Source: Nitrosomonadales bacterium (GTDB taxonomy: Bacteria; Pseudomonadota; Gammaproteobacteria; Burkholderiales; Gallionellaceae). Taken from it: a DNA stretch of 35,791 nt. Position numbers and translations under genes: made by a program. Under the pieces are notes generated by a model, which saw nothing but the letters and a program-made list of their open reading frames with translations, searched no databases and was not told the DNA's origin. The stretch is from assembly GCA_016213335.1 (NCBI GenBank), contig JACRAQ010000064.1, forward strand, positions 1 to 35,791. Reading direction: 5' to 3'. Of the stretch, positions 6,276 through 35,216 are shown in pieces. Within the stretch, counting starts at the first letter, position 1; each line of letters starts with the position of its first letter.

Positions 6276-6286
6276 AAAATGTGTTT

Positions 6287-7420
6287 ATGAGGCTTGCGAA
6301 CGCATATCAGGCTGAAGCCTTAACTCTGTGGGAAGCCATAGTGGCTGATATCAAGGCTGAGTATTTGTCTGAAGCTCAGCGCTACCCTTGGATTATTGGC
6401 TTCTCTGGCGGCAAGGACAGTACGCTGGTTGCCCAGGCCGTTCTGGAAGCAATTCTCTGCATCACACCTTCTGACCGCACCCGTGAAGTTCATGTGGTCT
6501 CCAACGACACTCTTGTAGAAAGCCCATTGGTTATCGCTCATATGGTCAAGGCACAACAACAGATTGAGGATGCCGCCAAAAACATGGGGCTCCCGATTAC
6601 TGTGGTGACCACCAAACCAGAAAAGGATAAAACATTCTGGTCGTTGCTTATTGGCAAGGGCTATCCTAGCCCCAACCAGAACATGCGCTGGTGTACCGAC
6701 CGCCTGAAAATACAGCCCACCAGCACCTACATTCTCAACAATATTTCCAAACACGGGGCTGCCATCGTGGTGCTCGGTGTGCGTAAAGATGAGAGCAATT
6801 CACGTCGCAATTCAATCGACAAGTTTCAGAACATGGAGAATTCAAATCTCACTCCTCACGTTGAATTGCCCGGTGCCTACATCTATCGCCCTATCGTTGA
6901 TCTCGCGCTAGATGATGTATGGGAAATTCTTGGCCAATATCCGCCCCCTTGGGGCGGCACACATAGAGACCTTATTCAGCTTTATCGTGATGCAGGAGGG
7001 GGCGAATGCCCCGTGGTACTATCCAAAGAAGAAGCGCCAGGTTGTGGTACGTCTTCCAGCCGGTTCGGATGTTGGACATGCACCGTCGTTGAAAAGGATA
7101 GAAGCCTTCAGGGATTCATTGATGTGGGCAATCACCACTTCAAAGCCCTAGTGGACTTTCGTGACTGGATTAAAGAAATTCGCAACAAACCTGAATACCG
7201 TCAAGTGGAGCGCAGAAATGGCCGGATGCAATTTGACCTGCTGTCTGGCAAACACATCCCTGGGCCGTTCACCATTCAGGCACGCAAGATGATTTTAGAC
7301 AAACTGCTGCAAATAGAAAAAGAATTTGGCGACAAGCTTATCAGCAAGGATGAAATTGATTTCATCGAATACACTTGGGCTGAAGAGCTGCTTCAAAAGG
7401 GGGGAAACAAAAATGGCTGA
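6287..7420 (+). CDS. dndC: DndC-like DNA phosphorothioation sulfurtransferase
   Basis: 377-aa member of the PAPS-reductase/PP-loop ATPase superfamily. DndC adenylates the DNA backbone and passes sulfur, via an Fe-S cluster, to make phosphorothioate. The PP-loop SGGKDS is at residues 40-45. Candidate cluster or sulfur-handling cysteines are C136 in MRWCTDRLK, C241, and C253/C262/C265 in GCGTSSSRFGCWTC, a DndC hallmark. First gene of a tightly packed operon; its stop overlaps the next start. The start could also be GTG 6281. BREX BrxP-type proteins share the domain, but the DndD and DndE-like neighbours argue for Dnd. The symbol denotes family resemblance. Confidence 0.85.
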   Translation: MRLANAYQAEALTLWEAIVADIKAEYLSEAQRYPWIIGFSGGKDSTLVAQAVLEAILCITPSDRTREVHVVSNDTLVESPLVIAHMVKAQQQIEDAAKNMGLPITVVTTKPEKDKTFWSLLIGKGYPSPNQNMRWCTDRLKIQPTSTYILNNISKHGAAIVVLGVRKDESNSRRNSIDKFQNMENSNLTPHVELPGAYIYRPIVDLALDDVWEILGQYPPPWGGTHRDLIQLYRDAGGGECPVVLSKEEAPGCGTSSSRFGCWTCTVVEKDRSLQGFIDVGNHHFKALVDFRDWIKEIRNKPEYRQVERRNGRMQFDLLSGKHIPGPFTIQARKMILDKLLQIEKEFGDKLISKDEIDFIEYTWAEELLQKGGNKNG

Positions 7421-7682
7421 ATCTAATTCGAGTGACTTGGCCTCATGGTACGCCATAAGTGAGGAGTCTAAAAAAGCAAATATGTCAGAAGTATATTTGG
7501 GTGATCTGCCGCTTTGGTCAGACAACGAAGCCAGAGAAGTCATGGAGAAACTGTGCGAACAGCATAACGTTCCTGTAGATGTACTCACCGAGCTCGTAGC
7601 GATTCAACGCCATAACCAAGATAGAGCCAAGGCGTTTGGTATATATGACGCCATCAGCGAAGTTTTAAGCCGCATGGATTGA
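7413..7682 (+). CDS. Small DNA-modification-system accessory protein
   Basis: 89-aa acidic, probably alpha-helical protein of unknown function; no catalytic motif is seen. It starts at ATG 7413, overlapping the dndC stop by eight bases, with the G-rich AAGGGGGGAAA as ribosome site; a longer in-frame extension into dndC is unlikely. It ends 10 bases before the dndD-like gene. The conserved-looking core is EVYLGDLPLWSDNEAREVMEKL. Small ORFs between dndC and dndD relatives are known in some sulfur-modification loci, so a role as adaptor or assembly factor is inferred only from position. Confidence 0.75.
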   Translation: MAESNSSDLASWYAISEESKKANMSEVYLGDLPLWSDNEAREVMEKLCEQHNVPVDVLTELVAIQRHNQDRAKAFGIYDAISEVLSRMD

Positions 7683-7692
7683 AAGGGTAACT

Positions 7693-9741
7693 ATGTGGAT
7701 TTCCCGGCTTGAACTCATCAATTTCAAAAGCTACCAACACCAGGTTTTTGAATTTCCCTCACCCACCCAGGGCAAGAATGTCATTCTCATTGGCGGGATG
7801 AATGGATACGGTAAAACAACCATTCTGGAAGCTCTCTATCTTGGCCTCTACGGTAAAGACTCTATCATCCATCTGGCTCGCGCGGGTATAAAAGGTGATG
7901 TGGGCTACCCCGTTTTTCTTGAGCGTGCTTTACATGGCCACGCATTGAAAACAAAACGCGACACGATGAGTGTGACAGTGCAATTCAACACCAACGAGAA
8001 TGAAGGTTTTCAAATCACACGCAAGTGGTTTTTCTCACCAAAAGGTGATTGGAAAGACGAAGAAATTCTGATTTACGACACCCGCGATGGTATTCGTACC
8101 CAAACTCGCAACGCCGAAGAGATTGAAGAAATTCTGGATCAATACTTTGTCCCGGCTCACCTCGCCCCATTTTTCTTCTTTGACGGGGAAGAGGTGAAGC
8201 GTTTGGCCGACCATAACCGTGTTGAGCAGATCAAGATGGGCATGGAAGGCTTGCTCGGAGTGGTGTTGCTCCGTAAGCTGGAAACCAGATTACAGCAGTA
8301 TCAAACCAACAAGAGCCAAGGTGTACCAAAGGTCGATGAGGAAAAGCATCGCCAATTATTGGAAGAGCTTACCCAGCACGAGCAACAGATGGAAGAAATG
8401 CAACGAAAAATCGTCTTGGCAGACGGGGAGCTAGGTACACTCAAGGCCGAACGCACCAATCTAATGAACCGTGTTATGGCTCTCGGTGGCGGTGGTGGCG
8501 ATATTGCCAACGCACGAGACATTGTGGAAGAAATGACCCATGCCGAGATTAACCTGAAAAAATGCCAAGACAATCTGGAGCAGGTATTGGGCTCACGCCT
8601 TCCGTTCCACCTTATTTCGCAAGAAGCCCGTGATGCTTATGTGGCTCAACTTAAGGCCGAAGAAGAGCGTATCAAGTGGGATACCCGCAAAAACAGCCTG
8701 GAGCCGGATAAAGAAAAATTTGTCTCTCGCTTTTTTGCGGAAGACGCCCCGCAATTCAATCCAAACCTGACATGTGAGCAACATACCACTGTGGTTCAGC
8801 GTCTTGAAGCCGCGTGGGAGAGTTTGTTTTATCCCTTACCCGATGGTTGCGCCGAAGAAATCGTCCACGACTACATTCATGGAATGAAACGTCAGCGGGT
8901 CATTGGCTTGATGGAAAATTTGAGTATCGGCGCTCAGGATATCCTTGTGTTTCTGGAACAACGAGATAGCCTGAATGAAAAGATTCGTAGTCTTCGCAAC
9001 CGCTTATCCAAAATTGAAGGCATTGACCGTGATGGCACGTTGACTGCCCTCAAGGCTGAAATGGATGCCGTCAACGGCAAGATTGACCAAAAGCAGAATG
9101 AGCTAAGCGATATTGAGAAAAGAACCGCAACACTCCAGGTTGACATCAATAATGGGCGCTCCAACTACCAGCGTGAACATGAGAAATTCCTGAAAGCCAA
9201 TCCGGTGAAATCAGATGTAGCTCGTGCCGAGCGTGTTTGTAAACTGATCAGTGACCTAATCCCCAGCCTTTATTCTCTCAAGGTAAACCGCCTGGCTCAT
9301 GCCATGACTACCGTCTTCCAGCAACTGTCACACAAGAAGCAAGTGGCACGCATTGAAATTAATGAGGCTGGCAAGTCTCGCCTCATCAGCTTTGAAGGTA
9401 ACGAAATTACATTTGATAAATCTGCGGGAGAAGACCAATTGTTTGCCACTTCACTGCTTGCAGGGCTTGCCGAAATATCCGGCATCAAGGCGCCATTGGT
9501 TGTCGATACCCCGCTGGCACGACTGGACAGTAATCACCGCAAAAACATCCTGAATTACTGGATTTCGGACAAGAGTCGACAAGTGTTCCTATTGAGCCAA
9601 GACAAAGAAATTGACGCCTCAGTTCTTAACGAATTGAAAGGCAGCATCGCACAGACGTACCTGCTTCAACACCAGCAAATTGGTAACGGTGTAGGCATGA
9701 CAACAGCCACCAAGAACACCTACTTTGGGGTCCAGCAATGA
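7693..9741 (+). CDS. dndD: DndD-like SMC/Rad50-type ATPase
   Basis: 682-aa ABC/SMC-type ATPase. The N-terminal half site has MWISRLELINFKSYQ and Walker A GMNGYGKTT (35-43), followed by FFFFDGEEVKRLAD. A long charged central region (about residues 210-520) is predicted coiled coil. The C-terminal half site carries the signature-like SAGEDQ, then Walker B PLVVDTPLARLD and LSQDKEID. DndD is the ATPase of the phosphorothioation complex, thought to use DNA-stimulated ATP hydrolysis to open or nick DNA for modification. No CxxC zinc hook is seen. It has a ribosome site GAAAGGG, starts 10 bases after the small gene, and its stop overlaps the next start (ATGA). Confidence 0.85.
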   Translation: MWISRLELINFKSYQHQVFEFPSPTQGKNVILIGGMNGYGKTTILEALYLGLYGKDSIIHLARAGIKGDVGYPVFLERALHGHALKTKRDTMSVTVQFNTNENEGFQITRKWFFSPKGDWKDEEILIYDTRDGIRTQTRNAEEIEEILDQYFVPAHLAPFFFFDGEEVKRLADHNRVEQIKMGMEGLLGVVLLRKLETRLQQYQTNKSQGVPKVDEEKHRQLLEELTQHEQQMEEMQRKIVLADGELGTLKAERTNLMNRVMALGGGGGDIANARDIVEEMTHAEINLKKCQDNLEQVLGSRLPFHLISQEARDAYVAQLKAEEERIKWDTRKNSLEPDKEKFVSRFFAEDAPQFNPNLTCEQHTTVVQRLEAAWESLFYPLPDGCAEEIVHDYIHGMKRQRVIGLMENLSIGAQDILVFLEQRDSLNEKIRSLRNRLSKIEGIDRDGTLTALKAEMDAVNGKIDQKQNELSDIEKRTATLQVDINNGRSNYQREHEKFLKANPVKSDVARAERVCKLISDLIPSLYSLKVNRLAHAMTTVFQQLSHKKQVARIEINEAGKSRLISFEGNEITFDKSAGEDQLFATSLLAGLAEISGIKAPLVVDTPLARLDSNHRKNILNYWISDKSRQVFLLSQDKEIDASVLNELKGSIAQTYLLQHQQIGNGVGMTTATKNTYFGVQQ

Positions 9742-11270
9742 GCGATATAAGCTTAGAAAATGTGCTCGTCTCCAACTTCCAGACCAGCGCAGAAGCAGAC
9801 AAAATCACTGAAATGTTAAAAGGGCAATTGGGTCTTTCCGTGCGGTATCGTGTCGCTCGCCTCGCTATTGGCCGTTCGTTGGGTGAATCATCTTTTCCCA
9901 TGCAAAGCGTGGATGCCCAAGGGAAAACCATCAAAGGAGATTTACTGTTTGGACTGGATGAATATCCGTTGTGGGTAGGCCTGCTTATCACCAACATCAA
10001 AAAGCATATCCAAAAACCAGAGCTCACGATTCCCACCTTGCAAAACGCAGTTAGGCGACATTGGCATCGAGGCATCATGCTTTTGTTGGACGATTGGAAA
10101 GAGGCAAGGGAAGACCCAAGAAAGTTTTGGGAAATCTTGATTCATCGCAGAGCCATGCTGCCCGACACCGTTTCCAAACCAAGCAAATTCGGAGAAATAC
10201 ATCATGATAACGAGCCCGCCTTCACTGGTGTAGCCAAGGCTGTATACGTCGACTTGGGCAAGGGTGTGGATGCACCACACGAACAGTTCACACGCCTGGT
10301 GAATGGCGTTGGCACTTCTCCGCACATGGCGATTATGGGTCAGTCTGGCTCAGGCAAGACCCGTATCATGAAAGAGGTGCTGAAGCAGATTCACAATCAA
10401 ACTGGTGCACCCGTTATTCTGTTGGACTTGGGCAAGGGTGACCTTGCCAACGATACGGCGTTGATTGATGTACTGGAGGCGAAAATCCTGCGTGTCCCTG
10501 AAGACGGCATTCCGCTGGACATGTTTTACGCCTCCAACCTAAACGAAGAGGTCGCTACCGATACCGTGATGGGCTTCCGTGATTCCTTCTCCAGTGTGGT
10601 GCAAGGAAAGCTGGGGCCGAAGCAACTGGATAATCTGCGGGAAGCATTAAAACCGCTATTCATTTCCCAAGAGAAAATAACGCTGGAGCATGTGCGCTCT
10701 CGGCTTAGCCAGTATTATGAGGACAACGACTTGAAAGTGGATAGTGTAATGTCCACCATCAACGACCTGACACAATACACAATTTTCAGGCCTGACTTTT
10801 CACCCCAACAGTTTTTCTCTCAAAGTTGGATTATCACTTTTGCCCATGCTCACGACACCATCAAGAATCTGGCAGTTTTCTTATTGATGGATGCGTTAAA
10901 CACCTATATGAAACGCTCATCAGAGGCACCGCAAGATAGTGAAGGGCATCGTGCTATTCGTCTGGTTCTCGCTGTGGATGAAGCACGGCATCTGCTCGCT
11001 TCCAAACACGATGCCTTGAGCGACAATATTCGTTTGCATCGTTCCAAAGGCTTGGTGGTTACCCTTGCTTCACAAAGTCCAGACGACTACGACGGCAAGA
11101 GCGATGACTATTTGGAAAACATTGGGCTTCCTATCTGTTTCAATACAAACGCCGTAGCTACTAAAGTGCTCCAGAACATGTTCCGGGGCAAGGCGAACTT
11201 TGCCACGCTTCCATCGGGCGTGTTCATGACATTGAAGGACTTGAAGCAGGTCAAGGTTAAGGCATTTTAG
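9738..11270 (+). CDS. Probable DndE-domain/HerA-FtsK-like ATPase fusion
   Basis: 510 aa. Residues about 8-115 resemble DndE: a SAEADKITEMLKGQLGLS helix, then RYRVARLAIGRSL, and after a variable stretch DAQGKTIKGDLLFGLDEYPLWVGLL, matching the DndE pattern (R-I-A-L-x-x-S-L, E-F-N-x-x-T-L-x-G-E-Y-D). Residues about 160-510 form a HerA/VirB4/FtsK-type motor: Walker A GQSGSGKT (201-208), Walker B VLAVDEAR (410-417) and a sensor-like LASQSPDDY. DndE binds nicked DNA in known systems and is normally a ~110-aa stand-alone protein, so a covalent link to a translocase motor is unusual. No NurA-like nuclease accompanies it. The start overlaps the dndD stop. The DndE assignment is by eye; the ATPase assignment is firm. 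Confidence 0.75.
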   Translation: MSDISLENVLVSNFQTSAEADKITEMLKGQLGLSVRYRVARLAIGRSLGESSFPMQSVDAQGKTIKGDLLFGLDEYPLWVGLLITNIKKHIQKPELTIPTLQNAVRRHWHRGIMLLLDDWKEAREDPRKFWEILIHRRAMLPDTVSKPSKFGEIHHDNEPAFTGVAKAVYVDLGKGVDAPHEQFTRLVNGVGTSPHMAIMGQSGSGKTRIMKEVLKQIHNQTGAPVILLDLGKGDLANDTALIDVLEAKILRVPEDGIPLDMFYASNLNEEVATDTVMGFRDSFSSVVQGKLGPKQLDNLREALKPLFISQEKITLEHVRSRLSQYYEDNDLKVDSVMSTINDLTQYTIFRPDFSPQQFFSQSWIITFAHAHDTIKNLAVFLLMDALNTYMKRSSEAPQDSEGHRAIRLVLAVDEARHLLASKHDALSDNIRLHRSKGLVVTLASQSPDDYDGKSDDYLENIGLPICFNTNAVATKVLQNMFRGKANFATLPSGVFMTLKDLKQVKVKAF

Positions 11271-11278
11271 GGGGAGCG

Positions 11279-11755
11279 ATGAGCGATAACACGAATATGA
11301 AGCGCCCGGGCCGTGCTGAAATCGAGACTATCCTTACTTATGGGCTGATAGCCGTTGTAGTCGGAGGTGGCGCTGGGGTATACCTGCCATTGACTATGGG
11401 TAAGAATCTTAGCGCTGATGCGCTTTCAACTTACATTTTTGCCATGCTTGCGCCATTTTGGGTGGATGCGTTATTGCACGAGCCTTACTGGAAGAAGCTG
11501 TCCAAGGTTATTCGGATGAGAATTGGGCTTGGTTGTGCATCGGCAGCAATCTTGGCTATTATCGCCCTCATTCGAGACGGGAAATCTTGGGATTTAACAT
11601 TGGGTGGGCTAGGAACATTGCTTGTTCTGGTCGTTTGGTTTTTTCTTGCGCTCTACTCTGGCCGATTTGCACCAGATGAAGCTATTCCACCTACTGGCCC
11701 ACTGGGTGGCTCTGAGGTTACATCTGCACACCTTAGCGGTGGAGGTCTCCAATGA
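11279..11755 (+). CDS. Small membrane protein of the Dnd-like operon
   Basis: 158-aa protein of unknown function with about four hydrophobic segments: ILTYGLIAVVVGGGAGVYL, ALSTYIFAMLAPFWVDALL, GLGCASAAILAIIALI and LGTLLVLVVWFFLALYSG. The C-terminal tail is Gly/Pro/Ser-rich and probably soluble. It has a good ribosome site (GGGGGAGCG), lies eight bases after the ATPase gene, and its stop overlaps the next start (ATGA), so it is an integral operon member rather than a chance ORF. Membrane proteins are not part of the classic dndBCDE set; a role as effector or anchor is inference. Confidence 0.75.
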   Translation: MSDNTNMKRPGRAEIETILTYGLIAVVVGGGAGVYLPLTMGKNLSADALSTYIFAMLAPFWVDALLHEPYWKKLSKVIRMRIGLGCASAAILAIIALIRDGKSWDLTLGGLGTLLVLVVWFFLALYSGRFAPDEAIPPTGPLGGSEVTSAHLSGGGLQ

Positions 11756-12975
11756 CTACACATACCGATGGCATCAACACGTTTGCTATTCGCGTCAATC
11801 AACCTCTTGGGACGTTCTATGCATTTACCCTTGGAGCCAATGTATTAGATCAGATTACATATTCACAACCCGCAGAAGTGATGGCGCGGTTGGAGCAGGA
11901 ATCGGATGACAGCAAGGGGGGGTATTCGATTTTTGGTACTCAACGCGGCGAAAACAAGAAAAGACTTGAAGAGATCGCGTCTTTCATTAGAACAACCGAA
12001 GCAACGTTTCCAAACGCCATCATTCTCGCTGCTAACTATGATCCAGATGGTGGGTATATTGGAGAGGAAGACGCGCGGAGATGGTCGGTCAAAGGGGGGG
12101 GTGATGGGTCATGGAGACTACACATACCATCACTGAGCGAGCGATCAGCATCCATTATTGATGGACAACATCGGCTTCATGCTTTTAATAAGCTGCCACT
12201 GGACGCACCTGAGCGTTCGATGGAATTGCTGTGCGTGGTATTTCTCGAACTGCCAACGCCCTACCATGCCTACGTTTTTGCAACCATCAATTTCAATCAG
12301 AAGAAGGTGGATCGTAGTCTTGCATATGAGCTATTTGGATTCGATGTAGACGAAAAACCTGCACGCTTTTGGTCGCCAGAGACACTGGCTGTTTACTTGA
12401 CGCGCCTAATGAACACGGAAAAGGAATCGCCGCTATATAGGTCAATTTTCCCAGCGGCTGATTCCGACAAGCTGTTTTCTGATGCCGACGAACAACCAGA
12501 CTTGGATGTACGTGTGTCCATGGCAACCGTCGTGGATGGCATCTTGCGGCTGATTTCAAAGAATCCAAAAGAAGACCGCAATCTTGTCCGACGCCCAGAA
12601 AATAAGGGGCTTGGTCGGGATGCACTTACTCCGATCAAGGGAGTACCGTTGCGCGCACTGTACGTCCAAAATAACGACAAAGCCATTTATGATTTGTTGT
12701 GCAATTACTTCTTGGCCGTTCGATCCGCAGTTTGGGCTACAGCAGGAAAGGGCTCTTATTTGCGAAAGACTGTAGGCGTGCAGGCACTGTTTGATGTGTT
12801 GAAGGAGTTGCTTTGCGATTCACCAATTACTGCAAGTAATTTCTCGGCAATAACTCTCTCAGCATCTTTGCAACCATGTTCCAACTTAGACCCAAATGGA
12901 GATAAATATCAAGCCTCTGGTATCGGGCGAAGCGAGATTCGACGGGATTTGCTGAGAGCGCTAGGTAAAGCTTGA
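11752..12975 (+). CDS. DndB-like DGQHR-domain protein
   Basis: 407-aa protein with the diagnostic DGQHR motif at residues 137-141 (SIIDGQHRLHAF) and the family segment VFATINFNQKKVDRSLAYELF. In characterised dnd loci the DGQHR protein DndB represses the operon and tunes modification frequency. Here it is the last gene of the operon rather than a divergent first gene. It carries unusual poly-G runs of 7 (11916-11922) and 8 (12094-12101), which could slip and switch the frame. It is longer than a minimal DGQHR domain and comparable to DndB. Start fixed by the ATGA junction. A close DndB identity is not certain. Confidence 0.8.
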   Translation: MTTHTDGINTFAIRVNQPLGTFYAFTLGANVLDQITYSQPAEVMARLEQESDDSKGGYSIFGTQRGENKKRLEEIASFIRTTEATFPNAIILAANYDPDGGYIGEEDARRWSVKGGGDGSWRLHIPSLSERSASIIDGQHRLHAFNKLPLDAPERSMELLCVVFLELPTPYHAYVFATINFNQKKVDRSLAYELFGFDVDEKPARFWSPETLAVYLTRLMNTEKESPLYRSIFPAADSDKLFSDADEQPDLDVRVSMATVVDGILRLISKNPKEDRNLVRRPENKGLGRDALTPIKGVPLRALYVQNNDKAIYDLLCNYFLAVRSAVWATAGKGSYLRKTVGVQALFDVLKELLCDSPITASNFSAITLSASLQPCSNLDPNGDKYQASGIGRSEIRRDLLRALGKA

Positions 12976-13007: not shown

Positions 13008-13406
13008 ATGGACATCGAACGATTTAATGAGCGCAGACGGGAGTTGAACACCGCCGTTCAGCGGCTGGAGGAGGCGTGTGCGCAGCCCTTCTCCAGTTTC
13101 ATCCGCGATTCGGTGATTCAACGCTTCGAGTTTTGCTGGGAGCTTGCATGGAAGACCTTACGCTTGAAGCTGGAGGCAGAGGGTGTGTTGGTCAGCACGC
13201 CGCGCGAAACCTGGCAGCAGGCATTGCAGGCGGGGCTGATCGAGGATGGCAACGCATGGTCTGAAGCGCAGAGGAAGCGCAATCTCACCAGCCATACTTA
13301 CGATGAGAAGCTGGCCGATGAGGTTTACAGCTATGTGCTGCAAGAGGGATTACCGTTGTTTCGCAAACTGGCCGCAGAAGCCGGAAAATGGCAAGTAGCC
13401 AACTGA
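13008..13406 (+). CDS. hepT: HepT-like HEPN toxin (HI0074 family)
   Basis: 132-aa all-helical HEPN protein, formerly called nucleotidyltransferase substrate-binding protein. The RNase-type motif R-x4-H-x-Y is intact at R91/H96/Y98 (RNLTSHTY). The N-terminus is IERFNERRRELNTAVQRLEEA, with a WELAWKTLRLKLEAEG helix typical of this branch. In type VII systems HepT is a toxic RNase that its MNT partner silences by adding AMP at the Tyr of this motif. The downstream gene overlaps it by 19 bases. Base composition is closer to the host than the Dnd operon, so it may have arrived separately. Confidence 0.88.
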   Translation: MDIERFNERRRELNTAVQRLEEACAQPFSSFIRDSVIQRFEFCWELAWKTLRLKLEAEGVLVSTPRETWQQALQAGLIEDGNAWSEAQRKRNLTSHTYDEKLADEVYSYVLQEGLPLFRKLAAEAGKWQVAN

Positions 13407-13720
13407 CCTTCGGCTTGTCCGATAGCATCCTCGGCGACCTGCGCCGGGTGTTCTCTGCTTATCCGGAAATCGAACGGGTGTTGATCTTCGGTTCGCGTGC
13501 CAAGGGTGCGTTCAAGGATGGTTCGGACATTGACCTGGCCGTGTTTGCGCCGACCATGAGCGATCAACGTTTCACTCGGTTGTGGGGTGAACTGGATGGG
13601 CTGCCACTGGTGTTCAAGATGGATGTACTGCACTGGAACAAGCTGGGCAACGAGCGTCTGAAGAGCAAGATACCCAATGAGGGTAAGGTGCTTTACCCTT
13701 TGCAGCGCCAGGCAGATTGA
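13388..13720 (+). CDS. mntA: MntA-like minimal nucleotidyltransferase antitoxin
   Basis: 110-aa MNT-fold protein with the full GSx10DxD motif: G35-S36 in FGSRAKGAF and D47/D49 in GSDIDL. MntA-type enzymes use ATP to AMPylate and neutralise the HEPN partner. It starts within the 3' end of hepT (ATG 13388), so the two are translationally coupled. The C-terminal part (FKMDVLHWNKLGNERLKSKI) is usual for the family. Toxin-first order is common in this type. Confidence 0.88.
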   Translation: MASSQLTFGLSDSILGDLRRVFSAYPEIERVLIFGSRAKGAFKDGSDIDLAVFAPTMSDQRFTRLWGELDGLPLVFKMDVLHWNKLGNERLKSKIPNEGKVLYPLQRQAD

Positions 13721-13794
13721 CAGTTTGCGGCAGCAAGTGCTACTTTCTTCCTGCGCCGATTTGAGGAACAGCTTGCGGGCGCATAATAAATTCA

Positions 13795-13820
13795 GCTAAA
13801 GCGGGGGAGCCCGGTTTAGC
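13795..13820. other. Strong hairpin upstream of the structured element
   Basis: GCTAAA pairs with TTTAGC and, after one G-G mismatch, CGGG pairs with CCCG around a GGAG loop. It lies after mntA and six bases before the two-hairpin element. There is no T-run on the + strand, so it is not a standard terminator. It is absent at the second element copy near ettA. Confidence 0.7.
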
Positions 13821-13826
13821 TCTGCA

Positions 13827-13874
13827 TAGCCAATCGGCTAGGCTGTCAAAAGACGACAGCCAAGTCGCTGGTTA
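13827..13874 (+). other. Two-hairpin structured element, copy 1 (before metZ)
   Basis: Hairpin A is TAGCC-aatc-GGCTA. Hairpin B is GGCTGTC, a 7-base loop ending GAC, then GACAGCC. The tail is AAGTCGCTGGTTA. It aligns without gaps to 35141-35188 (36 of 48 identical). Eight of the twelve differences fall in stem B and make four compensatory pair changes, so structure is under selection. It could be a structured RNA leader of metZ, a REP-like element, or the end of a mobile element; orientation is arbitrary. Confidence 0.75.
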
Positions 13875-13913
13875 GCGCCAAGCTTTCCGGGTTTTCTGCT
13901 TTCAGGAGATAGC

Positions 13914-15089
13914 ATGTCAGAAAAAAATTCATACCAGCCGGAAACGCTCGCCGTGCGCGCGGGCGCGGTGCGCAGTCAGTTTGGCGAAAACAGCGAGGCG
14001 CTGTTCCTCACTTCCAGCTTCACTTTCGACAGCGCCGCACAGGCCGCCGAGCGCTTCCTCAGCAACGAACCCAGCAACATCTACTCGCGCTTCACCAACC
14101 CCACTGTCACCATGTTCGAGGAGCGCCTTGCCGCCATGGAAGGTGCGGAGCGGTGTGTGGCGACGGCTTCCGGCATGTCGGCGATCCTGGCGTGCGTGAT
14201 GGCCCTGCTGAAAGCTGGCGACCATATCGTGGCATCGCAGAGCATCTTCGGCGCGACGATCAATCTGTTCAACAACATCATCAAGAAATTCGGCGTGGAG
14301 ACGACTTACGTTTCCGCCACCGATGTGTCCGAATGGGACGCGGCAGTGCGCCCCAATACCCGGCTGTTGTTTCTGGAAACCCCCTCCAATCCGCTCACAG
14401 AAGTGTCCGACATCGCGGCGATTGCGGCGGTGGCAAAGCGGCATGGAGTATTGCTGGTGGTGGACAACTGCTTTTGCACCCCCATCCTGCAACGCCCCTT
14501 TGATTTGGGCGCGGATATCGTGATCCATTCTGCAACCAAGTATATAGACGGGCAGGGGCGCGTGCTGGGCGGCGCGGTGCTGGGCAGCAAGAAGCACATG
14601 GAACCCGTGTTCGGTTTTCTGCGCACGGCGGGGCCGACCCTGAGCGCGTTCAACGCGTGGATCTTCCTGAAAGGTCTGGAGACGCTCAAAATACGCATGG
14701 ATGCACACAGCGCCAATTCGCTGGAGCTGGCGCGCTGGCTGGAGGTGCAACCCAACGTGGCGCGCGTGTACTACCCCGGCCTGCCTTCGCACCCGCAGCA
14801 CGCCCTGGCGATGAAACAGCAGAAAAGCGGCGGCGGCATCGTGTCGTTCGAGGTCAAGGGCGGCAAGGAGGCTGCATGGCGCGTGATTGATAACACGCGC
14901 CTGATCTCCATCACCGCCAACCTGGGCGACACCAAAACCACCATCACCCACCCGGCCAGCACCACCCATGGGCGCATCACGCCAGAAGCACGCGCTGCTG
15001 CAGGCATCACCGAAGGACTGCTGCGCATCGCCGTCGGGCTGGAAGCGGTCGTGGATATCCAGAACGACCTGGCGCGAGGGCTGGGTTAA
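13914..15089 (+). CDS. metZ: O-succinylhomoserine sulfhydrylase
   Basis: 391-aa pyridoxal-phosphate enzyme of the Cys/Met metabolism family. It makes homocysteine directly from O-succinylhomoserine and sulfide in methionine synthesis. Motifs: YSRFTNPTV, EGAERCVATASGMSAI, the cofactor-binding VVDNCFCTP, and the Schiff-base Lys209 in HSATKYIDGQGR. Length and N-terminus (YQPETLAVRAGAVRSQFGENSEALFLTSSF) fit MetZ rather than MetB or MetC. Ribosome site CAGGAG is eight bases before the ATG. metZ normally follows purF; here 7.7 kb of island separates them, so its transcription must now start inside or at the end of the island. Confidence 0.95.
   Translation: MSEKNSYQPETLAVRAGAVRSQFGENSEALFLTSSFTFDSAAQAAERFLSNEPSNIYSRFTNPTVTMFEERLAAMEGAERCVATASGMSAILACVMALLKAGDHIVASQSIFGATINLFNNIIKKFGVETTYVSATDVSEWDAAVRPNTRLLFLETPSNPLTEVSDIAAIAAVAKRHGVLLVVDNCFCTPILQRPFDLGADIVIHSATKYIDGQGRVLGGAVLGSKKHMEPVFGFLRTAGPTLSAFNAWIFLKGLETLKIRMDAHSANSLELARWLEVQPNVARVYYPGLPSHPQHALAMKQQKSGGGIVSFEVKGGKEAAWRVIDNTRLISITANLGDTKTTITHPASTTHGRITPEARAAAGITEGLLRIAVGLEAVVDIQNDLARGLG
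13935..13970 (+). repeat. Right copy of 36-bp direct repeat, inside metZ codons 8-19
   Basis: Same 36 bases as 6166-6201 with one difference. This copy is in the intact gene; the left copy is an abandoned gene start. Confidence 0.85.
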
Positions 15090-23696: not shown

Positions 23697-23998
23697 GGTG
23701 GCATCCTGAAGCTATTTTAACCCGGATATTTCACCAGACCGGACCGCAACCTGATTGCTGAAGCAGTAACACTATTTCTACGGCCAGCTCCTGCACTTTG
23801 ATGCTGCGCCGATTGGCTCAGCGATGCTGGCTGCTGACCACCACCTAGCCGTTAACCGGCTGCGCTGTCCAGAAAGGATGGCGCAGCCGCCAGGATTCGA
23901 CAGAGTTACCGTAAACGCAGGTTCCGCCTTATCCGGTACAACCCGGATTACCCCGGCTCCCTGCTAGAATGCGCGCCTGCCCAGCTCCCCACGCGCAC
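23697..23998. other. Intergenic region with GC-rich hairpins
   Basis: About 300 bases with no gene seen. At 23846 TAGCCG begins a structure in which AGCCG/CGGCT and GGCTGCGC/GCGCAGCC compete for the same GGCT. This recalls the two-hairpin element at 13827 and 35141 but lacks its conserved tail. The region probably also contains the divergent promoters of the KTSC gene and yaeQ. Confidence 0.4.
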
Positions 23999-34349: not shown

Positions 34350-34682
34350 TCAGCGCACTTCCACCACGGCATGGCCTTCCTGCAACTGCTCCCTGATTTG
34401 CGGCAGCAGTCCGGCGAATGTCTTCAACAACGCTTCCTTGCGGCAGTTGCCCAGCCTGACCCAAAGCACTTGAGGCGGAGTGGCGTTTTGCCGGTCGGCC
34501 AGTTGCGCGAAGTCTTCATCCTTGGTGACGATGACCATGCCTTCGCTTTTCGCATATTCCCAGATGGCCGGATCGCTTGCGCTATCCAGCCCCATGTCCA
34601 GTACATGTCGGCATTCAAATCCATTTGCTGTGAGGAACCGTGCCAGTGCCAGCGGCAACTGGTTGTCCACCAGCAGTTTCAT
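34350..34682 (-). CDS. DUF5615 PIN-like toxin candidate
   Basis: 110-aa protein: MKLLVDNQLPLALARFLTANGFECRHVLDMGL, then DPAIWEYAKSEGMVIVTKDEDFAQLA. The acidic residues D6, the E in IWEYA and the D-E-D in TKDEDF match the Mut7-C/PIN-like DUF5615 pattern of RNase-type toxins. The start overlaps the stop of the DUF433 gene (ATGA), the usual antitoxin-toxin arrangement. Toxic activity is inference from the family. Confidence 0.85.
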   Translation of the reverse strand: MKLLVDNQLPLALARFLTANGFECRHVLDMGLDSASDPAIWEYAKSEGMVIVTKDEDFAQLADRQNATPPQVLWVRLGNCRKEALLKTFAGLLPQIREQLQEGHAVVEVR

Positions 34683-34909
34683 GCGGCGATGAGGATGGGG
34701 TGATCCGCCTGGATGGCCGCATATTCGAGGGCAGCGAGGATGTCTTCTTCCTCGAGAAAGGGATAGTCTTTAAGTATTTCGCTGTGGGAAGCGCCGGAGC
34801 CAAGCAACCCGAGGATGTCCGCAACACGAATACGATATCCGCGTATGCAAGGACGCCCGCCACATTTACCGGGCTCTATCGTGATACGCTCGAGTCGTTT
34901 CGGGCTCAT
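34679..34909 (-). CDS. DUF433 antitoxin candidate
   Basis: 76-aa protein: RITIEPGKCGGRPCIRGYRIRVADILGLLGSG, then EILKDYPFLEEEDILAALEYA, the complete DUF433 pattern with a winged-helix-like core. ATG 34909 (MSPKRLERI) has a strong GGAGGAG ribosome site, so the longer frame to 34990 is rejected. First gene of a two-gene operon with the DUF5615 gene; likely autoregulates it. Confidence 0.88.
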   Translation of the reverse strand: MSPKRLERITIEPGKCGGRPCIRGYRIRVADILGLLGSGASHSEILKDYPFLEEEDILAALEYAAIQADHPILIAA

Positions 34910-35097
34910 GTTAATCTCCTCCTGTGCCTTGCAGGCAACATCATGAGGATTTCTGCCCTGTATTGCAATAGCGGCGGCACTGCGCTGCAATCGGCAACCA
35001 TTCTTGATTTCCCTTTCACCACCCTCTTGCTAATGCCACCAGCCATTCGATAAACGGCAACGCTGCAAAGTCGCTCCCGCAAGAGCATCATGAGGGC

Positions 35098-35142
35098 TAC
35101 CGGCTGATAGGTTTGTAACAAATTCGTTGGGCTTGGCTCCTA
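35098..35142 (-). pseudogene. Decayed copy of the ettA 3' end
   Basis: Aligns to 35215-35260 at about 36 of 46 positions with one single-base gap; several differences are transitions. It corresponds to the last codons [14 protein letters not shown] and the stop. It lies 75 bases beyond the real end of ettA, so the element between was inserted at the gene end. Confidence 0.65.
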
Positions 35143-35188
35143 GCCACTCGACTAAGCGAGCACACGACGCTCGCTAAGTCGCTGGTTA
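35141..35188 (+). other. Two-hairpin structured element, copy 2 (after ettA)
   Basis: Hairpin A is TAGCC-actc-GACTA (one mismatch). Hairpin B is AGCGAGC, a 7-base loop ending GAC, then GCTCGCT. The tail AAGTCGCTGGTTA is identical to copy 1 at 13827-13874. Stem B keeps seven pairs although four of them differ from copy 1. Confidence 0.75.
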
Positions 35189-35216
35189 TCACCCAACCGC
35201 TTTTCTTGCCCATCAT

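Follow-up and report, generated by a model that had tools for sequence, protein, structure and literature searches.

Short mobile palindromes of several kinds have been described in bacterial genomes. The closest to the element reported here are the GTAG REPs and REPtrons associated with RAYT genes, which are short, dispersed palindromes with a bulged stem, sub-families differing in the stem and a CT junction, some of them lying in other palindromes (PMC3733652, PMC8266576). The RAYT protein TnpA_REP cleaves at CT on either the 5' or the 3' side of a REP, and a bulge in the stem is required in E. coli REPs (PMC8266576). CGTC REPs represent a published case of REP-like palindromes lacking a dedicated transposase (PMC3733652). 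MITEs derived from IS200/IS605 (PATEs) also form a hairpin, insert without target duplication and have a fixed left-flank target.

Here, we describe an element of approximately 60 nt with no gene of its own, two copies of which are present in a 35,791-nt stretch of DNA (the window) from a Nitrosomonadales bacterium of the Gallionellaceae. The element is scattered over genomes of this iron-oxidising family, compensatory changes preserve its fold, and its insertion is precise and free of duplication, mostly right after CT and often in other palindromes. In the broad sense it is a REP-like mobile hairpin, that is, a dispersed non-coding palindrome with precise insertion and a conserved fold. It is very probably a non-autonomous, REP/MITE-like mobile DNA element composed of one bulged hairpin and a short 5' leader, with a presumed HUH-type mover acting in trans.

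Two copies in the window and their fold

The two copies and the features around them are as follows.

9738-11270: N-terminal DndE domain joined to a HerA/DndH-like ATPase, in a defence cluster with DndC-like (PADLOC, E 2.9e-122), DndD/PbeC-like (1.4e-247) and DndB/DpdB-like proteins
13743-13820 (+): SAM-II (SAM_alpha) riboswitch aptamer of metZ (Rfam RF00521, 37.7 bits, gathering threshold 36)
13810-13820 (+): left arm, CCCGGTTTAGC, of the intrinsic terminator; it overlaps the 3' end of the riboswitch (fold; uninterrupted terminator in 44 relatives)
13819-13874 (+): whole insert of copy 1, a mobile hairpin with a class II leader (filled L116 compared with empty L122)
13827-13874 (+): hairpin core of copy 1 (covariance model R1, 72.2 bits; fold z -5.3)
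13880-13895 (+): right arm of the terminator with the U-tract, AAGCTTTCCGGG-TTTT (sequence, fold)
13914-15089 (+): metZ, a Cys/Met metabolism PLP-dependent enzyme (Pfam PF01053, E 3.3e-141)
35101-35216 (+): duplicated remnant of the 3' end of ettA, a minus-strand gene, holding copy 2 (flanks align to the true ettA tail, 35217 onwards)
35141-35189 (+): copy 2 of the hairpin, core and terminal T, the usual 5' leader being absent (R1, 69.6 bits)

An earlier note had aligned 13827-13874 with 35141-35188 over 48 bases without gaps, and both the coordinates and the alignment are correct. RNA folding gave the two copies the same structure, ((((((..(((((.(((((((.......))))))).))))).)))))), with energies of -24.6 and -24.8 kcal/mol (z -5.3; 0 of 200 shuffles were as good). 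From the outside inwards, the hairpin is built from TAGCCA/TGGTTA (6 bp), a 2x1 internal loop, CGRCT/AGTCG (5 bp) and an A.A mismatch, beyond which lie a 7-bp variable stem and a 7-nt loop. In this variable stem, four of the seven pairs differ between the copies and all seven remain paired in the alignment and in both folds, as had been noted. The two-hairpin model proposed at the same time is incorrect, as the minimum free energy fold of both copies is a single bulged hairpin, with which the local "stem A" competes as a poorer fold. The tail AAGTCGCTGGTTA, described as conserved, does recur exactly (15 occurrences in the 2.54-Mb genome of the organism, with far fewer for reversed-pattern controls), but it forms the 3' side of the middle and outer stems. 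The looser relative suspected at 23846 is not a member of the family: model matches in the window comprise the two copies and a weak antisense echo of one of them.

The DNA phosphorothioation-type defence cluster occupies 6281-12975, between purF and metZ, and is an island, since relatives have purF directly upstream of metZ. It is followed, just upstream of the metZ leader, by an NTase substrate-binding (HEPN-like) and nucleotidyltransferase pair (13008-13720), which is likely an MNT-HEPN toxin-antitoxin module. Copy 2 adjoins a DUF433-DUF5615 (PIN-like) pair (34350-34990, minus strand), also likely a toxin-antitoxin module.

Family size and covariation

A covariance model was built from 35 distinct ungapped copies. 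With this model, the genome of the organism contains 21 copies (E ≤ 1e-3), copies were present in 20 of 250 genomes of the same order (its own genome counted), and 3 of 368 other genomes in a wider sample of the class showed a match, indicating that the element is rare outside the family. A strict pattern detected copies in 17 of 36 genomes of the same family and in 0 of 24 genomes of the same order. Covariance-model matches in other families of the order have the variant foot TAAGC..GCTTA. In one genome from another family of the order (G225, L202-L204), a 42-nt variant forms tandem arrays with a 49-nt period at contig ends. Genome G002 holds 43-nt copies with identical scores, which suggests a recent spread of the element there.

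Conservation of the fold, taken earlier as evidence of selection on structure, is strongly supported by covariation in these many additional copies. Among the 35 distinct copies, standard pairs account for 95.6% of pair cells, and two-sided changes were found in 8 of 18 pairs (49 cells, which count sequences and not events). The covariation score was reached by 0 of 500 shuffles and was lost when the partners were slid. Most apical pairs show two or three pair types each, and the middle stem covaries as well (CGACT/AGTCG, CCACT/AGTGG and CCGCT/AGCGG, with changes from G-C to C-G and from A-U to G-C). There is hardly any change in the bulges, A.A mismatch and G.U pair or across most of the loop. 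Because the sub-families are so varied, a single ancestral change behind the covariation seems implausible.

Filled and empty sites

The SAM-II riboswitch upstream of metZ has an intrinsic terminator, and copy 1 occupies its apical loop. A SAM-II riboswitch has also been described upstream of metZ in S. meliloti, where SAM-induced transcription termination was predicted and a terminated sRNA was detected (PMC9373788). That leader and its terminator platform resemble those of the window in aptamer class and in the metZ gene, whereas the terminator loop here and in five relatives bears a mobile hairpin. A survey of approximately 200 proteobacterial genomes found SAM_alpha only in Rhizobiales and Rhodobacterales (PMC4239095). 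We observed SAM-II with a terminator commonly upstream of metZ in the Gallionellaceae (Betaproteobacteria; leaders L059-L138), 31 of 81 leaders being without it by pattern. The relatives compared bear the names Gallionella, Sideroxydans, Ferrigenium, Ferriphaselus and Nitrotoga, which places the host in the Gallionellaceae.

By pattern, the 81 metZ leaders comprise 44 in which SAM-II precedes an unbroken terminator of the form CCCGGTTTAGC-(short loop)-AAGCTTTCCGGGTTTTTT, six, the window among them, whose terminator loop is the exact site of the hairpin, and 31 without such a leader. In sister rows of the metZ tree, the empty L122 reads GGTTTAGC^GCAAGC (carets mark junctions) and the filled L116 reads GGTTTAGC^TCTGCATAGCC...GGTTAGC^GCAAGC, the two leaders differing by approximately one 56-nt unit. 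In copy 1 this insert comprises GCTCTGCA and the 48-nt hairpin (56 nt), with a boundary that is ambiguous over TTAGC/GC. The filled state is scattered over a quick tree of metZ, in which the starred branches force at least two changes, pointing to repeated gains, losses or transfers at this site.

With the element in place, the terminator folds as one continuous stem of -42.8 kcal/mol, compared to -12.3 kcal/mol for the usual terminator that is restored by in silico removal. The natural reading of these predicted energies is that the insertion is tolerated and perhaps strengthens the terminator, as the insert would lengthen the terminator hairpin into one long stem. In this leader, AGCUAAA (13794-13800) and UUUAGCU (13815-13821) could pair as an antiterminator that excludes the terminator arm CCCGGUUUAGCU. 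The strong fold, the covariation and the position of copy 1 between the SAM-II aptamer and metZ might indicate a structured RNA, acting either as a small RNA or, in the metZ leader, as a second switch of the riboswitch type. This is very improbable, given that the 44 relatives retain riboswitch and terminator without the element, that other copies lie at unrelated sites, including a former ettA coding end and a phage tail gene, and that neighbouring genes do not recur. In Rfam searches, the region of copy 1 matched only SAM_alpha upstream and copy 2 had no match, consistent with the view of the earlier note that the element fits no known riboswitch or attC consensus.

A second comparison of filled and empty alleles comes from the gap between recA and recX. 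The empty allele, AAACTTTT^GG(C/G)CGGGCACCC, was found in L079 and L104, and the filled allele, CTTTT^GATGGAACCACTAGCC...GGTTAT^GGCCGGGCACCC, in L116, L072 and L086 (in short, CTTTT^GATGG...GGTTAT^GGCCGGG). The insert is exactly one 60-nt unit, with no loss and, unlike in a classical MITE, no target site duplication past a 1-nt T ambiguity. The 5' leaders fall into two classes, class I with GATGRAACNAC (11 nt) and class II with GCTCTGCA, the class II boundaries having few copies behind them.

The flanks of copy 2 represent a duplicated and degraded ettA 3' end, aligning to the true ettA tail with a score of 80 against a shuffled maximum of 49; the leader is absent there, together with about 5 nt of the target. 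The same arrangement recurs at L297 and L298 (in genomes G020 and G005), whereas the ettA tail of other relatives is unbroken. Several Gallionellaceae have the 3' end of ettA duplicated in tandem, some with the hairpin and some lacking it (L296-L298, L302). The earlier question of whether copies lie at mobile junctions can be answered in a stronger form, because the empty sites identify each copy as the insertion itself.

Target preference and candidate movers

CT precedes the leader in 57 of 73 non-redundant class I copies and in seven more with a leader one base longer, as at the CT junction of GTAG REPs, and 66 of the 73 copies have the terminal T. Palindromic repeats serving as targets include CCCTCT^CCCGCAAGCGGG..GAGGG, CGTCATT^CCGGCGAAGGCCGGAAT (a CGTC-type REP in G002) and the metZ terminator, and L122 contains tandem and nested copies of the element. 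The flanks fold more strongly than re-paired flanks (0 of 200 as low), whereas base pairs across the junction were not significantly more numerous than in re-paired flanks (30 of 200 had as many). Palindromes are thus likely, though not proven, to be preferred targets. On an IMG/VR contig with tail genes, one copy lies right where a reading frame stops, beside the end of a phage tail gene; carriage on catalogued plasmids or phages was considered and rejected.

The insertion after CT bears on an origin as an integron attC-like site, for which one could cite the folded imperfect hairpin, the dispersed copies and the toxin-antitoxin-like gene pair beside one of them. Integron sites insert at G^TT, and inspection of the ends and flanks revealed neither RYYYAAC/GTTRRRY core sites nor a cassette gene, so an attC origin is almost certainly wrong. 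The nesting in other palindromes, in turn, might reflect spread by template switching and recombination between palindromic repeats, with no dedicated enzyme. Such spread would fit the tandem and nested copies in L122, the joint travel of the element with a CGTC-type repeat in G002 and the lack of an identified transposase, but hardly the preference for CT at unrelated sites or the exactness of the 60-nt boundaries, and we regard it as unlikely.

No PF01797 (Y1) transposase was detected in the genome of the organism (92.7% complete) or in the high-copy genomes G005 and G026. This family was present in 13 of the 17 same-family genomes with the strict pattern and in 16 of the 19 without it, a weak test in that some of the latter hold divergent copies; the idea that its presence tracks the element was rejected for want of correspondence. 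No gene, including transposase genes, recurs beside the copies. We also found no replication-strand or lagging-strand-template bias (25 of 54 copies concordant with GC skew, p 0.68, skew over short regions being a noisy proxy). Among the matches listed, the left end is nearly always accompanied by a right end 30-50 nt away, and inspection by eye found no longer parent IS with these ends there.

Movement by a RAYT protein that cleaves the hairpin at CT and links it to a new site, in the manner of E. coli REPs, would explain the insertions after the TnpA_REP cleavage dinucleotide and the bulged stem (PMC8266576), and RAYT genes are present in many relatives. However, those genes are flanked by GTAG palindromes of their own (e.g. 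GTAGGTCGGGTTAGCGCAGCGTAACCCGAC around L212), and covariance-model searches of 50 HUH/RAYT loci gave no match to the element. The hairpin has no GTAG on its 5' side, and PF01797 was not detected in the three genomes named above, making a RAYT mover improbable. A miniature IS200/IS605-type derivative moved by a Y1 transposase would share the imperfect hairpin, the fixed left-flank dinucleotide and the lack of target duplication. Such derivatives have a pair of left and right ends, whereas this element is one hairpin only, has no strand bias and showed no parent IS among the matches listed; together with the Y1 result for its own genome, this leaves the derivative a low probability.

Under the preferred reading of a REP/MITE-like element mobilised in trans, the folded single strand would be recognised through its conserved bulges, G.U pair and loop, and a trans-supplied enzyme would cut and join the element 3' of the target dinucleotide CT. 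The mover is probably a HUH-type single-strand nuclease, which is the leading candidate because TnpA_REP cuts at CT. The element differs from GTAG REPs in lacking the GTAG tag, in its leaders (GATGRAACNAC or GCTCTGCA), in its 60-nt unit and in not lying beside the RAYT genes tested. It resembles CGTC REPs, for which the lack of a dedicated transposase has been reported, but has no CGTC tag itself; the tag occurs only in the flanking target repeat where the element inserts into CGTC-type palindromes (G002). The element represents a new family of REP-like mobile hairpins, and the tests separate it from GTAG REPs, CGTC REPs, classical MITEs, attC sites and known RNA families.

This family is ordinary in kind, and unusual in the question of its mover and in its riboswitch-terminator site. 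A bolder reading, possible though rather doubtful, is that it represents a third, untagged REP-like super-family, in which an unrecognised activity splices folded single-stranded hairpins into CT sites exposed on hairpins and has entered one riboswitch terminator loop more than once. Many REP-like palindromes have no known mover, and in this family the boundaries are exact, the empty sites clean, the young copies near-identical and the target dinucleotide defined, which opens its mover to a biochemical search. At metZ, a mobile hairpin lies inside a riboswitch expression platform with the terminator intact, providing a natural test of how far a terminator loop tolerates structured inserts.
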